From Thermofilaceae archaeon (GTDB lineage: Archaea > Thermoproteota > Thermoprotei > Thermofilales > Thermofilaceae), in contig JALSNQ010000002.1 of assembly GCA_026986905.1 (NCBI GenBank), positions 1 to 61,764 of the forward strand: a DNA stretch of 61,764 nucleotides. Reading direction: 5' to 3'. Under the pieces are notes generated by a model. That model ran no database searches. It was not told the origin of the DNA and worked only from the letters and a program-made list of their open reading frames with translations. Shown one piece after another: positions 3,776 to 37,143 of the stretch; positions within the stretch are counted from its first letter, which is position 1; every line of letters starts with the position of its first letter. Made by a program: the position numbers and the translations under genes.

Positions 3776-3869
3776 CCAGTTTATGGGTTAGAAATATTTT
3801 ATTTAAAACCCTTTGTCGAGGAACAAAATGATTTGAGTATTTTATTTTTATTACAAAACCATCCTAATG

Positions 3870-3880
3870 TTTATAAAATA
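3870..3880 (+). promoter_or_regulatory. TATA box for first V4R-like paralog
   Basis: TTTATAAAATA lies about 22-32 nt before the ATG at 3902, the spacing expected for a leaderless crenarchaeal transcript. It supports the start at 3902 rather than the longer frame opening at the TTG at 3833. Confidence 0.5.
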
Positions 3881-3901
3881 ATTATTAGATATAATAATGC
3901 G

Positions 3902-4360
3902 ATGGATGAGAATCCTGCGAAGAAAAATCTACTTCTAACTATAATTTATAGTGTTGAAAAGACGTTGTGGGATGCACTTGGCAAAAGCAGCTTCGCCTTG
4001 TTACCGTTTATAGGCGAAAATCTCTGCGAGGAATTGAATATAAGTACTTGTGAAGACGAATACGAGAGTTCCGGTAATGCTATAAAAACTGTTAGTGGTG
4101 ATTTTGTTAAACTCGGGATATTTGATAGCTTGTCGATGTCTGACAGCGACAGTAAAATTGATGTAACAATAAACGGTTGTATGTTGCTACCCGTCGAGAA
4201 AAAACTCTTAGAGAGCGGGGTTAAGCCCTTCGTGTGCCCTGTAATGAACTCCATGATGTACGTGCTCAGGGAGAGGGTGAGGGTAAAGGCTAGGGTGAAG
4301 AGTATAACCGTTGATGATAGGAAAGGAGTCTGTAATATAGTAATTGAAAAAATTCTGTGA
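3902..4360 (+). CDS. V4R-like domain protein, paralog A
   Basis: A 152-aa protein that I can relate securely only to its downstream neighbour. Both share a core with KxLWDALGK, an LPFIGE-type block, a GC...VEKKLLESGVKPFVCP block, MNS and a C-terminal IxVD...VC segment. The pattern of a Cys-Pro pair, a helix and a final Asp...Cys strand resembles V4R / hydrocarbon-binding domains, but this is a weak inference. Codon use is much more AT-rich than its neighbours and the flanks are AT-rich too. The acidic central segment is shorter and more degenerate than in paralog B, suggesting relaxed or divergent evolution. Ligand and role are unknown. Confidence 0.6.
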   Translation: MDENPAKKNLLLTIIYSVEKTLWDALGKSSFALLPFIGENLCEELNISTCEDEYESSGNAIKTVSGDFVKLGIFDSLSMSDSDSKIDVTINGCMLLPVEKKLLESGVKPFVCPVMNSMMYVLRERVRVKARVKSITVDDRKGVCNIVIEKIL

Positions 4361-4466
4361 TAAAGACGTTAATTTCACCATAAAATGATTTGTATCTACG
4401 TGATTTTCAGCCGCTTATTAGGAAAAAATCTATAGGCGTCGAGTGCCTCCTCTACTAGGTGGATTT

Positions 4467-4940
4467 ATGGCCGAGAAGGAGAAGTGCGGTATAGAGCTAA
4501 AGTTGTTGAAAACGATACTTTACGGCGTGGAGAAGGCGCTCTGGGACGCGCTCGGTAAGGGTAGTTTAGCATTTACACCATTTATAGGGGAGAAGATATA
4601 TGAAGAAGTTGGGCAGCAGTTCGGGAAGCGTATCGAAAACTCTTCTCTCCAGGAGCTCTTAGAGGAAATTGGCCGCTTCTACACGGAGAAGACGGGCTTC
4701 AGCAAAAGTTTCCGTACAGAGATTACTGATAGCCGTTACACGCTCTACGTTGAAGGATGTCAGCTCATGGATGTTGAAAAGAAGCTGATAGAGGACGGTG
4801 TTACCCCATTTATATGCCCCTTGATGAACTCGGTGGCCTACCTTGTGAGGAAGAAGCTGGGGGTGAAGAGCCGTATCACGGAGATAAACGTGGATCCTGA
4901 AAGGGCTGTGTGTAAGCTTTCCTTCGAAGTCATTAAGTAG
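4467..4940 (+). CDS. V4R-like domain protein, paralog B
   Basis: A 157-aa tandem paralog of the preceding gene, with clear similarity over its length: KALWDALGKGSLAF, PFIGEK, a VEKKLIEDGVTPFICP block, the MNS triad and a C-terminal VD...AVCKL strand. ATG 4467 is chosen because it follows an AGGTGG ribosome-binding-like stretch; the frame opens upstream at a GTG without support. Codon use is closer to the chromosomal norm than paralog A. The fold may belong to the V4R ligand-binding class, by the conserved cysteines and late Asp-Cys strand, but I cannot confirm that. The pair stands between valS and a UxaE-like gene without an obvious shared pathway. Confidence 0.65.
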   Translation: MAEKEKCGIELKLLKTILYGVEKALWDALGKGSLAFTPFIGEKIYEEVGQQFGKRIENSSLQELLEEIGRFYTEKTGFSKSFRTEITDSRYTLYVEGCQLMDVEKKLIEDGVTPFICPLMNSVAYLVRKKLGVKSRITEINVDPERAVCKLSFEVIK

Positions 4941-34049: not shown

Positions 34050-34152
34050 GGGCCGGTAGCTCAGCCTGGATAGAGCGATGGCCATACTAGCTCTGGCTGG
34101 GTGGTCGAGGCTTTTAACCCATAGGTCCCGGGTTCGAATCCCGGCCGGCCCG
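34050..34152 (+). tRNA. tRNA-Lys (TTT) with a 28-nt intron at position 30/31
   Basis: Acceptor GGGCCGG pairs with CCGGCCC (34145-34151) with discriminator G and encoded CCA (34153-34155). The T arm is CCGGG-TTCGAAT-CCCGG. The anticodon loop CTTTTAA (34111-34117) reads TTT at 34113-34115, and the 3' stem CCCAT needs ATGGG, which is split: ATGG (34078-34081) plus G34110. The intron is 34082-34109. A bulge-helix-bulge supports it: CGAT (34076-34079) pairs GTCG (34104-34107), one G-U, with bulges GGC and AGG cut as expected. The junction is inside the anticodon stem. Confidence 0.93.
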
Positions 34153-34155
34153 CCA

Positions 34156-34324
34156 CGTGTTTTCTTGGCTCAACTTCTTGTGTAAAGTGATGAATATACT
34201 TGGATAGTTATATAGAATATTATATAAAACCAGCCTCTTTTTTTAAATAGTGTTAGAATCATTTTCAAAATTATCAGATAAATTAAATAAATGTATTTTT
34301 TAAGATAGTTAGTAAAATATAAAT
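34156..34324. other. AT-rich intergenic region
   Basis: The 338 nt between glyS and the UbiA gene hold tRNA-Lys and this 169-nt AT-rich stretch. It contains a T-tract at 34238-34244, probably the tRNA terminator, and several TATA-like runs that could promote the UbiA gene. A GTGATGA at 34187-34193 looks like a C box but has no partner D box. I see no further gene. Confidence 0.5.
34238..34244 (+). terminator. T-tract terminator after tRNA-Lys
   Basis: A run of seven T after CTC, about 83 nt past the encoded CCA. Archaeal RNA polymerase stops at such T-runs without a hairpin. Confidence 0.35.
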
Positions 34325-35296
34325 GTGATTATTTTGAAAAATTTTATCGATATGGCTATATCAAATAAGGAAATAAAGACGACGCGTAAAGGATACACGG
34401 ACGTCGACATGTTGTTCTCAAGCATATTCTATGAAACACGACCATTCTTCGTTTTATCAATACTTAATCCAATACTCGCGGCTGTCCTGGCATTAGGCTA
34501 TGTGCCCGACATAGTTTCACTCCAGGCCTGGTTCATAGCACTTGGCTTCCTCTCCTACGCGTTAATGGAGTCCGGGAGCAACATATGGAACAACCTTAAC
34601 GATATAGAGGAGGACGCGGTTTCAAAGCCTACGACACTTCAAGTTGCGGGAAGGCTTCCACCCAGCATAGCACTCAAAGCAAGCTTTACCTTCTACACCT
34701 TAGGCCTACTCTTGGCATTGTACTTTACTCTGCGCATAAATAGGCCTTGGGCGCTTATCGGCTACCTTATATACATGGTACTAAGCTTCCTTTATAGCGA
34801 TAGAAGGTACACCAACGTTAGGTTAAAAGCTAGATGGTGGGCTGGACCGGGAGCTATTGGCGTCGGCTTTGCAGCCCTTTCGTATTCACTCTATGAGATA
34901 TTCAAGGACATTGATATCACAGGGTGGGGTATAGTAGTCATAACCTTCCTCACTTATCTCTACATGGGGGCTGTGAAGGATTTCAGAGACATAGAGGGAG
35001 ATCGTAAAGCGGGAAACATTACGCCGGCTAGTGTGAACCCGTGGGGTACAATGGTAATTTCCCTCTTCGTTGCCTGGCTCGCGCTTGCGGTGCAGCTTGT
35101 CCTGGCATTTCTGGGATATTTTCCTTTAATACCGTCACTTGTGTCTTCAGTGTGCTGGGTGCGTGTGGCGAAGCTTACACTTGAGGGGAGAAGGGCGTTA
35201 GAGGACGGCATAACGATGATGAAGAGCTTCATGGATCTGAAGGTGTTTTACCCGCTATTGTTTATCTTAGTGATGTGGCTAATGCAGTTGATTTAA
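34325..35296 (+). CDS. UbiA-family prenyltransferase
   Basis: Membrane-bound intramembrane prenyltransferase with about eight or nine hydrophobic helices. The two aspartate-rich motifs are NNLNDIEEDAVSKP (about residue 90) and KDFRDIEGDRKAG (about 220), which bind Mg-prenyl diphosphate. The acceptor is unknown: quinone, haem and archaeal lipid synthesis are all possible. The frame opens at a GTG (34325) with ATG 34352 as the alternative. It stands 67 nt upstream of the V4R gene on the same strand, with an AT-rich gap that may hold a separate promoter. The upstream flank is strongly AT-rich. Confidence 0.85.
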   Translation: MIILKNFIDMAISNKEIKTTRKGYTDVDMLFSSIFYETRPFFVLSILNPILAAVLALGYVPDIVSLQAWFIALGFLSYALMESGSNIWNNLNDIEEDAVSKPTTLQVAGRLPPSIALKASFTFYTLGLLLALYFTLRINRPWALIGYLIYMVLSFLYSDRRYTNVRLKARWWAGPGAIGVGFAALSYSLYEIFKDIDITGWGIVVITFLTYLYMGAVKDFRDIEGDRKAGNITPASVNPWGTMVISLFVAWLALAVQLVLAFLGYFPLIPSLVSSVCWVRVAKLTLEGRRALEDGITMMKSFMDLKVFYPLLFILVMWLMQLI

Positions 35297-35363
35297 ATAT
35301 AAAAATTTTTGTAAAGGGAAACATTTTTTCGAATAATCTTTATCTATATAAAAAGGAGATACC

Positions 35364-35876
35364 ATGTCCGCCATCAAAAAGAGAGTAGCAGACGTGTTGA
35401 TCAATGTGTCTAAGAACATTTTCATACCGGTCCTGATGCCCCAAATACAGCTTCTCAACGCTCATCTACTGCAGCTGGGTCTTGACAAGCAGCTCTACAT
35501 TTACGGTACCCAAGTAGGCGTTGAAGTCGCCCGTATGGCGGGCAAAGCTATGGGCCGTGAGAGGATGAGCTTAGATGAACTGGTAGAATGGACGCCTTTC
35601 ATAATAAAGCATTTGACCATAGGTATAGCTAGTGGAAGAATAGTCGAAGTAAATAGGGAGAAGGGGGAATATACCGTCAGGGTATATAACAGTCCTTACG
35701 CTAAACTTCCCGACGGCAAAACGTTAAGCCTAGGCAGGCCGGCATGCCATATGCTTGCGGGCATATTTGCGGGTGGCGCTACACGCGTGCTGGGTAAGCC
35801 GTATTCCGCCGTGGAGACAAAATGTATAGCTAAGGGCGATGATTACTGTGAGTTCAAGTTGAAGCCGGTGCAGTAG
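35364..35876 (+). CDS. V4R domain protein (Bet3-related fold)
   Basis: A 170-aa protein with a helical N-terminal half and a V4R (4-vinyl reductase / hydrocarbon-binding) domain. The C-terminal signature is clear: Cys128 in GRPACHMLAGIF, then GKPYSAVETKC with Cys154 and GDDYCEF with Cys162, the paired cysteines that bind zinc in V4R proteins. V4R is related to Bet3, a subunit of the TRAPP complex that activates Rab GTPases. ATG 35364 follows an AAGGAGAT stretch. It ends 2 nt before a 95-aa gene that overlaps a small GTPase, a tight three-gene operon. Confidence 0.85.
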   Translation: MSAIKKRVADVLINVSKNIFIPVLMPQIQLLNAHLLQLGLDKQLYIYGTQVGVEVARMAGKAMGRERMSLDELVEWTPFIIKHLTIGIASGRIVEVNREKGEYTVRVYNSPYAKLPDGKTLSLGRPACHMLAGIFAGGATRVLGKPYSAVETKCIAKGDDYCEFKLKPVQ

Positions 35877-35878
35877 AG

Positions 35879-36166
35879 ATGTCTAAGGGCCTTAAGGTGA
35901 TAATACCCGATGTGCACGTCCCTGTATGGGTTAGCCCGATAAAGGCTCGAGAGTTTATGGAGGAGAAACTAGACGTGATTTCCGCCAAGTGGGGTGAAGC
36001 CGGCGCCTTGATAGCAACTTACATCGGGCTTTACACGGTGAGAGAGATCTACGATAAGATCCGCGACCTGTATCCTGATTTCAAGCTCCAAGACGTTATG
36101 GACGTGTTAATGGAGATGTACGAGGATGGATATATCGACTTTAAAGAGGCGGAGGCAAGAAGATGA
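35879..36166 (+). CDS. Unknown 95-aa protein in V4R-GTPase operon
   Basis: I do not recognise the family. It is a small, mostly helical, acidic protein with a central aliphatic helix (GALIATYIGLYTVREIYDKI) and a C-terminal helix-turn-helix-like end (PDFKLQDVMDVLMEMYEDGYI). No cysteines or catalytic pattern. It may be an adaptor or a winged-helix-like scaffold between V4R and GTPase, but that rests only on operon position: 2 nt after the V4R stop and overlapping the GTPase start by 4 nt (ATGA). It is not a recognisable Roadblock/LC7 domain. Confidence 0.75.
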   Translation: MSKGLKVIIPDVHVPVWVSPIKAREFMEEKLDVISAKWGEAGALIATYIGLYTVREIYDKIRDLYPDFKLQDVMDVLMEMYEDGYIDFKEAEARR

Positions 36167-36819
36167 TAGCCGGAGATAAACGTTACAAATTAGCCTGGCT
36201 TACAAAGAAGGTTAGGATAGGGGTTATTGGTGCGTACGCCTCCGGGAAGACTAGTTTTATTAAGGCTCTATCCGAGGTCTTCGACACGATAGCGACTAAG
36301 CGCTATGTAGATAGGATAGGCGTCTATAACAGCACTCTGGCTTATGATTACGGCGTGCTATATGCTGTACGAGATACGGGTAGAATATTGAAAGTGCGTG
36401 ACGAAGAGGCTGTGAGGAGGATCGAAGAGGGTCATCCACATGTATACAGGGTTGAGTTGTGGGGCGCTGCCGGGCAGAGGCACCTCTACGCGGCCCGTCA
36501 AGCAATAGTTTATCCGAAGATAGACGGTGTGATATTGTTTTTTGACCCGTCTAGAGAGGATTCTCTTGAGCTAAGCATTTTTCTCTACAGGGAGGCTAAG
36601 GAGAACATTGCTGGACTTGGCGAGACGAAACCAATAGTAGTCGTATTCAATAAACTGGACTTAGTTGATGAATGGGATGCCCGCCGCCTGGCTGAGAAGG
36701 TGGCACGCTTTCTGGACGAGGAGTACGTGGAGGGGGAGAACCTCTTCTTTATATCAGTGAAGGAAAAGCGGGGAATATGGCTGCCTGTAGAAGCGTTTAT
36801 CCGCATGTATGAGGGATAG
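36163..36819 (+). CDS. Ras-like small GTPase (COG2229/MglA-like)
   Basis: A 218-aa small GTPase. G1 P-loop is GAYASGKTS (residues 23-31); G2-like Thr58 sits in STLAYDYG; G3 is the atypical LWGAAGQ (99-105), lacking the usual Asp as in the COG2229 predicted GTPases with a GTPGQ motif; G4 is NKLD (163-166); G5 is ISVKEK (about 196-201). It has no lipid-anchoring cysteine end. The overlap with the 95-aa gene and close V4R gene suggest that V4R may regulate or bind it, like TRAPP with Rab. Substrate binding is inferred, not tested. Confidence 0.85.
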   Translation: MIAGDKRYKLAWLTKKVRIGVIGAYASGKTSFIKALSEVFDTIATKRYVDRIGVYNSTLAYDYGVLYAVRDTGRILKVRDEEAVRRIEEGHPHVYRVELWGAAGQRHLYAARQAIVYPKIDGVILFFDPSREDSLELSIFLYREAKENIAGLGETKPIVVVFNKLDLVDEWDARRLAEKVARFLDEEYVEGENLFFISVKEKRGIWLPVEAFIRMYEG

Positions 36820-36900
36820 CTGGGGGAGTCTAAGGCTGGGTAAGATTTTTATCCAGGTGTTTGTGTGGTTCATAGCCGCTATACTGGTTAGGGTGGTTTG

Positions 36901-37143
36901 TTGACGCGGAAAATAAATGTTTTGAAACATAGGTTAGTGCCTCGCCATGTGGTTCTATCCAGGGAGGATGCTAAACGCGTTCTGTCCAGGATGGGTGTGA
37001 AAAAGACTGAGCTTCCCTGGATGTTCTCGACAGACCCCGTGGCGGAAGCCCTAGGCGCGCAGCCGGGAGACGTAGTCATGATTATAAGGGAGAGCCCGAC
37101 TGCGGGCCGGTCGGTCTCCTATAGGCTCGTGATTTCAGGGTGA
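36901..37143 (+). CDS. rpoH: RNA polymerase subunit H (Rpb5 homologue)
   Basis: Small archaeal RNA polymerase subunit matching the C-terminal domain of Rpb5. The blocks LVPRHVVLS, DPVAEALGAQPGDVV and ESPTAGRSVSYR are diagnostic. 80 aa is normal. TTG 36901 is used; TTG 36898 immediately before is equivalent, and a GGGTGG stretch lies upstream. A TATA-like run at about 36841-36851 probably drives the rpoH-rpoB-rpoA1-rpoA2 operon. The stop overlaps the rpoB start (GTGA). Confidence 0.93.
   Translation: MTRKINVLKHRLVPRHVVLSREDAKRVLSRMGVKKTELPWMFSTDPVAEALGAQPGDVVMIIRESPTAGRSVSYRLVISG

Follow-up and report, generated by a model that had tools for sequence, protein, structure and literature searches.

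Organization of the locus

The window (the whole 61,764-nt stretch of Thermofilaceae DNA that was analysed) carries on its plus strand, in this order, the genes of a UbiA-family prenyltransferase, a V4R-domain protein, a 95-aa protein, a small GTPase, rpoH and rpoB (Table 1). A sequence-only reading of the window had described the first four as a cluster, and its open reading frames and their spacing were confirmed: V4R and the 95-aa ORF are separated by a gap of exactly 2 nt, and the 95-aa ORF and the GTPase gene overlap by exactly 4 nt. The zinc-type cysteines of V4R and the WGAAGQ sequence in the G3 motif of the GTPase, pointed out in the same reading, were confirmed as well.

Table 1. Features of the locus and related gene groups in other Thermoproteota
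Feature	Location	Strand	Basis
UbiA-family prenyltransferase, upstream neighbour outside the module	34325..35296	+	PF01040, E 4e-20
Region between UbiA and V4R, with conserved promoter-like (TATA-like) elements	35297..35363	+	alignment with G015; promoter role putative
V4R-domain protein, 170 aa, without DNA-binding domain	35364..35876	+	PF02830, E 6e-15, above cut-off
95-aa acidic protein, predicted winged-helix fold	35879..36166	+	AF2/Foldseek; without Pfam/NCBIfam match
MglA-like small GTPase, 218 aa	36163..36819	+	PF00071 (Ras), E 5e-7, above cut-off
rpoH (Rpb5 C-terminal), downstream neighbour, opens the RNA polymerase cluster (context)	36898..37143	+	PF01191
V4R-fold/roadblock pair, G023	L211, 3328-4252		roadblock-locus survey of the order
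V4R-fold/roadblock pair, G022	L212, 3986-4907		roadblock-locus survey of the order
ParA/MinD, V4R, roadblock, MglA-like GTPase operon, G087	L150, C11, 594-3110		

The identical order of V4R, 95-aa gene, GTPase and rpoH was found in G015 (contig JALVKT010000100.1, Thermofilaceae archaeon), the sole further genome of the genus. Identities to the G015 orthologs are 71% for V4R, 71% for the 95-aa protein and 68% for the GTPase, with pN/pS values of 0.26, 0.18 and 0.30, respectively. Since these ratios are low while synonymous divergence is at or close to saturation, the three genes are real and selected, and they are under purifying selection. They appear to form a conserved unit and one operon, presumably read as a single transcript.

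The UbiA gene and the region upstream of V4R

UbiA scored 72.6 bits against a PF01040 cut-off of 34.2, and both of its Asp-rich motifs, NDIEED and DFRDIEGD, are visible. The gene ends 67 nt before the start of V4R. About 45 nt of this gap are nearly identical in G015, including the TATA-like element AAATATAAAnATTTTT and the element AAACATTTTTTCGAA, while farther upstream the two genomes do not align. Given this distance and the conservation of the TATA-like element, UbiA probably belongs to a separate transcription unit from V4R. A search of 80 other genomes of the class, G015 (76% complete) included, gave no UbiA ortholog at E ≤ 1e-6; matches in four of the genomes searched, at about 2e-7 to 5e-7, were at the level of paralogs. 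The G015 contig begins 89 bases before V4R, so that adjacency to UbiA is unreadable there. In relatives, rpoH is preceded by a divergent glyS or by other genes, and the module is absent.

UbiA was therefore rejected as a module member, and the conserved gap, the missing class ortholog and the module-free rpoH of relatives make it best treated as a neighbour. Of the four-gene association proposed earlier, the adjacency of V4R, the 95-aa gene and the GTPase was recovered in G015, and the part concerning UbiA was not. The accompanying idea of a UbiA-made prenyl lipid as the signal sensed by V4R is unsupported, since UbiA is unconserved and probably lies in another transcription unit.

Directly before UbiA is a 165-bp intergenic region (window 34160-34324) of 21% G+C, compared with 53% for the window. 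It is preceded by a tRNA-like sequence (window 34050-34155) with matching acceptor-stem ends (GGGCCGG...CCGGCCCGCCA) and a probable intron; ARAGORN with the bacterial code did not call it, and Rfam at its gathering cut-offs did not either. UbiA, with no ortholog in the class, may be a recent arrival beside this sequence. Elsewhere in the window, two tandem paralogs (3833-4360 and 4443-4940) have no confident Pfam match, the weak one being to L-2-amino-thiazoline-4-carboxylic acid hydrolase (E 0.07).

The V4R protein

The V4R protein is a full-length, stand-alone domain (55.5 bits against a PF02830 cut-off of 31) and is basic, with a pI of 9.5 and a net charge of +7.7. In the PDB alignment its residues C128, E151, C154 and C162, which are invariant across 14 aligned V4Rs, pair with C155, E178, C181 and C189 of MopR, which we take to be the zinc ligands themselves. 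MopR-type sensor domains bind zinc through three Cys and one Glu (PMC10715001). A PDB search with the 14-row V4R profile matched MopR, PoxR, CapR and MJ1460, and no TRAPPC3 or Bet3 chain was found at E ≤ 1. The V4R fold is shared with all four, and the Cys-Glu-Cys-Cys pattern has identical spacing in MopR; unlike MopR, PoxR and CapR, the window V4R stands alone, unfused to an AAA+ or DNA-binding domain. Its NCBIfam matches are the MsvR and MobR regulators. V4R is present in 125 of 300 genomes of the phylum, mostly fused to other regulatory domains in open frames of about 260-290 aa.

The 95-aa protein

No Pfam or NCBIfam family matched the 95-aa protein at any usable threshold. The AF2 single-sequence model had a pLDDT of 70 overall and 82-91 in blocks over residues 31-80, and consisted of helices and a small wing. 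The best Foldseek matches were the winged helices of Fur/PerR, with a weak E of 0.2 and a probability of up to 0.97. On this one single-sequence model, the protein is predicted to be a winged helix. Among weak matches rejected, the one in G005 was HypD and due to chance; the others in the phylum reached E values of about 1e-3 to 1e-2, several sitting in stop-containing frames or long ORFs.

The 95-aa gene occupies the slot and spacing of the roadblock genes found beside other archaeal MglA-like GTPases, and roadblocks diverge fast, so that the protein might be a strongly diverged MglB roadblock, in which case the unit would be a usual MglA/MglB pair with a V4R added. Yet Robl_LC7 gave no match up to E 10, a local archaeal roadblock profile gave none either, and the predicted fold, helical with a wing, is unlike the alpha/beta fold of roadblocks. 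A roadblock identity was rejected at the available sensitivity, and we find this explanation scarcely credible.

The protein is acidic (net charge -5.4, pI 4.8), and the winged-helix part carries about -6.6, which would suit an adaptor between proteins better than a DNA-binding role. The same charge bears on the possibility that a one-component transcription regulator of the MsvR kind has been split into two genes, V4R being its ligand sensor and the 95-aa protein its winged-helix DNA-binding part, with a co-expressed GTPase of separate function. Such a regulator would suit the usual fusion of V4R to regulatory domains, the MsvR and MobR matches and the predicted Fur/PerR-like fold, and MglA group 3 has itself been reported beside a winged-helix protein (PMC4316618). 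Against it, the acidic winged helix would be poor at binding DNA, the GTPase gene overlaps the 95-aa gene, and other links between V4R and MglA genes occur without a winged helix. Overall, we consider a split regulator unlikely.

The GTPase and its relation to MglA

The GTPase contains the motifs GAYASGKT (G1), TLAYDYG (G2), LWGAAGQ (G3, lacking the Asp) and NKLD (G4). Its motifs and their spacing were compared with those of 35 Thermoproteota GTPases. A large group of these has an Asp-less G3 as the norm (LFGTPGQ, LFGVPGQ, LYGAPGQ) and shares the G2 pattern T(T/V/L)xxDxG, as does the window GTPase. MglA groups 2-5 have GTPGQ in G3 (PMC4316618), and the window motif is a variant of this type, not identical to it. 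It had been suggested that the atypical G3 might make the enzyme dependent on a partner. Because an Asp-less G3 is the rule in archaeal MglA-like GTPases, it is no sign by itself of unusual partner dependence.

The distance from G2 to G3 is 41-42 residues, compared with 17-18 in the MglA-like group. The difference is an interswitch insertion of about 24 residues, which in the census occurs only in the window genome, G015 and G001, and which was modelled by AF2 as a long hairpin plus a helix. The whole AF2 model has a Ras-like fold (pLDDT 76, pTM 0.79). In the tree, the GTPases of the window, G015 and G001 group together on long branches, and the MglA-like group is placed as their sister clade (support 87/89). 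Foldseek returned many Rho/Rab matches and MglA (3t12) with near-equal scores and hence no placement. From motifs and tree, the GTPase is, with moderate support, a divergent member of the archaeal MglA-like class or a sister to it.

In this class the usual partner gene lies directly upstream. A roadblock gene was found ≤45 nt upstream of 25 of 33 archaeal MglA-like GTPase genes, and a coupling to MglB has been reported for 390 of 449 small MglAs (PMC4316618). No roadblock gene was found within four genes of the window GTPase; since 390 of 449, and not all, small MglAs have MglB, a member of the class may lack it. An orphan roadblock, 65% identical to the Thermofilaceae roadblock, is encoded elsewhere in the window genome, at C17:22732-23001 (G000), and in G015, and could still act in trans.

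The proposal of a Rab-like GTPase did not survive this comparison. The G3 motif reads WGAAGQ instead of the DxxGQ of Rab, while G2 and G3 match archaeal MglA-like GTPases. No cysteine, C-terminal or other, is present anywhere in the 218 residues, and Rab-like prenylation is therefore not possible.

Distribution of the module and other V4R-GTPase links

The full module of V4R, 95-aa gene and GTPase was found in two genomes of one genus, both partial MAGs, and was absent from all other relatives tested. No GTPase ortholog was found beyond three genomes among 398 Thermoproteota genomes, the phylum samples being 300-398 genomes out of a larger set, and none in the viral contigs searched; a Flavobacterium match was limited to the P-loop. 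The third homolog, in G001, has neither V4R nor the 95-aa gene beside it and lies at a contig edge with 212 non-coding bases upstream. Since it stands without both, the GTPase can exist without V4R and the 95-aa gene.

No Ras-like GTPase was found in 45 neighbourhoods of other stand-alone V4R genes in Thermoproteota, where the only GTPases were of the unrelated MeaB and DRG types. Conversely, V4R was found in one of 40 GTPase neighbourhoods. This one, in G087, belongs to another Thermoproteota lineage, whose class holds one genome. The G087 operon begins with a ParA/MinD ATPase gene. Next come the genes of a 260-aa V4R protein, whose N-terminus is weakly ACT-like, of a roadblock matching PF03259 at E 3e-17 and of an MglA-like GTPase with LFGTPGH as its G3; the gaps are -4, 31 and 3 nt in gene order. 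Its V4R, middle protein and GTPase have the same order and strand as in the window; it differs in the true roadblock in the middle, the longer V4R and the ATPase in front.

In the Thermofilaceae genomes G022 and G023, a V4R-fold protein is encoded about 8 nt before a roadblock gene. These calls came from our own profile (E 4e-12 and 7e-11), the Pfam matches being weak and the zinc residues absent. The paired roadblock of G022 has a close paralog in the second roadblock of that genome's roadblock-GTPase-roadblock operon, the identity between the paralogs, measured from the G023 copy, being 92%. In G175, V4R and roadblock genes are divergent and about 500 nt apart. By gene density, 0.1-0.8 direct adjacencies would be expected, giving P(≥2) of 0.007-0.19 in this post hoc and rough estimate. 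The two independent adjacencies observed outside the window are suggestive, not proof.

These counts bear on whether the arrangement is a chance or housekeeping neighbourhood ahead of the highly expressed RNA polymerase cluster, without shared function. The restriction to two genomes of one genus, and the rarity with which V4R and GTPase genes adjoin in the phylum, would agree with chance. The 2-nt gap and 4-nt overlap would not, nor would an order kept at saturated synonymous divergence or the recurrence of V4R beside roadblock/MglA genes in other lineages, and we think a chance arrangement improbable.

Two further observations were made during the survey. The 800-kb genome of G087 contains eight V4R genes, among them tandem arrays of three copies (L123, C85) and two (L104, C48). 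In nine Thermofilaceae loci (L151-L159; G012, G017-G021, G023, G025, G026), GTPases of about 170-200 aa have strong Ras-family scores (PF00071, E 1e-37 to 1e-42) and a G3 of WDLGGE; they adjoin roadblock genes in several genomes and are among the most Ras-like of the phylum sample.

Comparison with MglA/MglB and TRAPP

The module looks like a modified MglA switch, with another protein in the place of the roadblock and V4R at the head of the operon. With MglA/MglB (groups 2-5, PMC4316618) it would share a small single-domain GTPase, the Asp-less G3, the G2 pattern TxxxDxG and a partner gene directly upstream. It differs in that the operon has no roadblock, a 95-aa winged-helix-like protein instead, and an added V4R, and in that the GTPase has the interswitch insertion and GAAGQ in place of GTPGQ.

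The cluster had also been read as a possible TRAPP/Rab-like module of prokaryotes, with V4R sensing the UbiA product and controlling a Rab-like GTPase. In its favour, the homology of V4R to Bet3 is accepted (PMC2253512), lipids can be bound by TRAPPC3-family proteins (PMC10933270), and a single operon of G087 holds V4R, roadblock and GTPase genes. What the window shares with the TRAPP core (Bet3/TRAPPC3, longins and Rab) and with Asgard TRAPPC3-like proteins is a protein of the V4R/TRAPP-domain type that may act on a GTPase of the Ras superfamily. Longins make up most of the exchange site in TRAPP (PMC10152722), whereas no longin or roadblock gene was found in the window operon, the GTPase is not a Rab and has no prenylation site, and UbiA is outside. 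The claimed kinship with TRAPP/Bet3 also finds no backing in the V4R profile, which retrieves the phenol-sensor V4Rs and MJ1460. For the Asgard archaeon MK-D1, it is reported that small-GTPase genes do not as a rule share operons with the genes of TRAPPC3, roadblock or longin proteins (PMC10933270). The module is not a true Rab/TRAPP system, and we regard the TRAPP/Rab-like account as very unlikely.

Proposed mechanism

The reading we prefer, with a probability of roughly 0.5, is that the MglA-like switch is under the control of a zinc-type V4R sensor, with an adaptor other than a roadblock acting between them. The GTPase would be a GTP/GDP switch of a class that is usually regulated by a roadblock (MglB) dimer, the product of the gene immediately upstream. 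In this operon an acidic winged-helix-like adaptor would fill the roadblock slot, and the stand-alone zinc-type V4R would open the unit. A V4R dimer may bind a small hydrophobic ligand, and the ligand state may be relayed through the adaptor, whose charge is opposite to that of the basic V4R; the contacts and the direction of the relay are putative. V4R and adaptor would then act on the switch regions, probably via the interswitch insertion, and set the nucleotide state, perhaps through a GEF or GAP effect.

The order and spacing kept in the genus, the purifying selection, the G2/G3 match, the shared insertion, the V4R links elsewhere and the opposite charges are consistent with this mechanism. 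Weighing against it are the two partial MAGs, the G001 GTPase standing alone, the 0 of 45 V4R neighbourhoods with a Ras-like GTPase, the small number of V4R/MglA links elsewhere and a 95-aa fold predicted from one single-sequence model. Of the earlier proposal, then, control of the GTPase by V4R through the middle protein has comparative support, because the unit is conserved and V4R-GTPase/roadblock operons occur elsewhere in the phylum; the Rab, TRAPP and UbiA-lipid parts fell away.

A bolder and more doubtful extension is that V4R with a non-roadblock winged-helix adaptor represents a new class of MglA-like regulator and, together with the G087 operon, a non-Asgard counterpart of the V4R/longin/GTPase trio behind TRAPP. 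The module ties V4R proteins to GTPase switches outside Asgard archaea, and the wider question is by what route V4R proteins acquired their part in GTPase exchange in the TRAPP of eukaryotes. The V4R/MglA-like GTPase operons, one with a roadblock and one with a replacement adaptor, are small, thermostable and testable systems, and they let one ask whether V4R regulated GTPases before eukaryotes.
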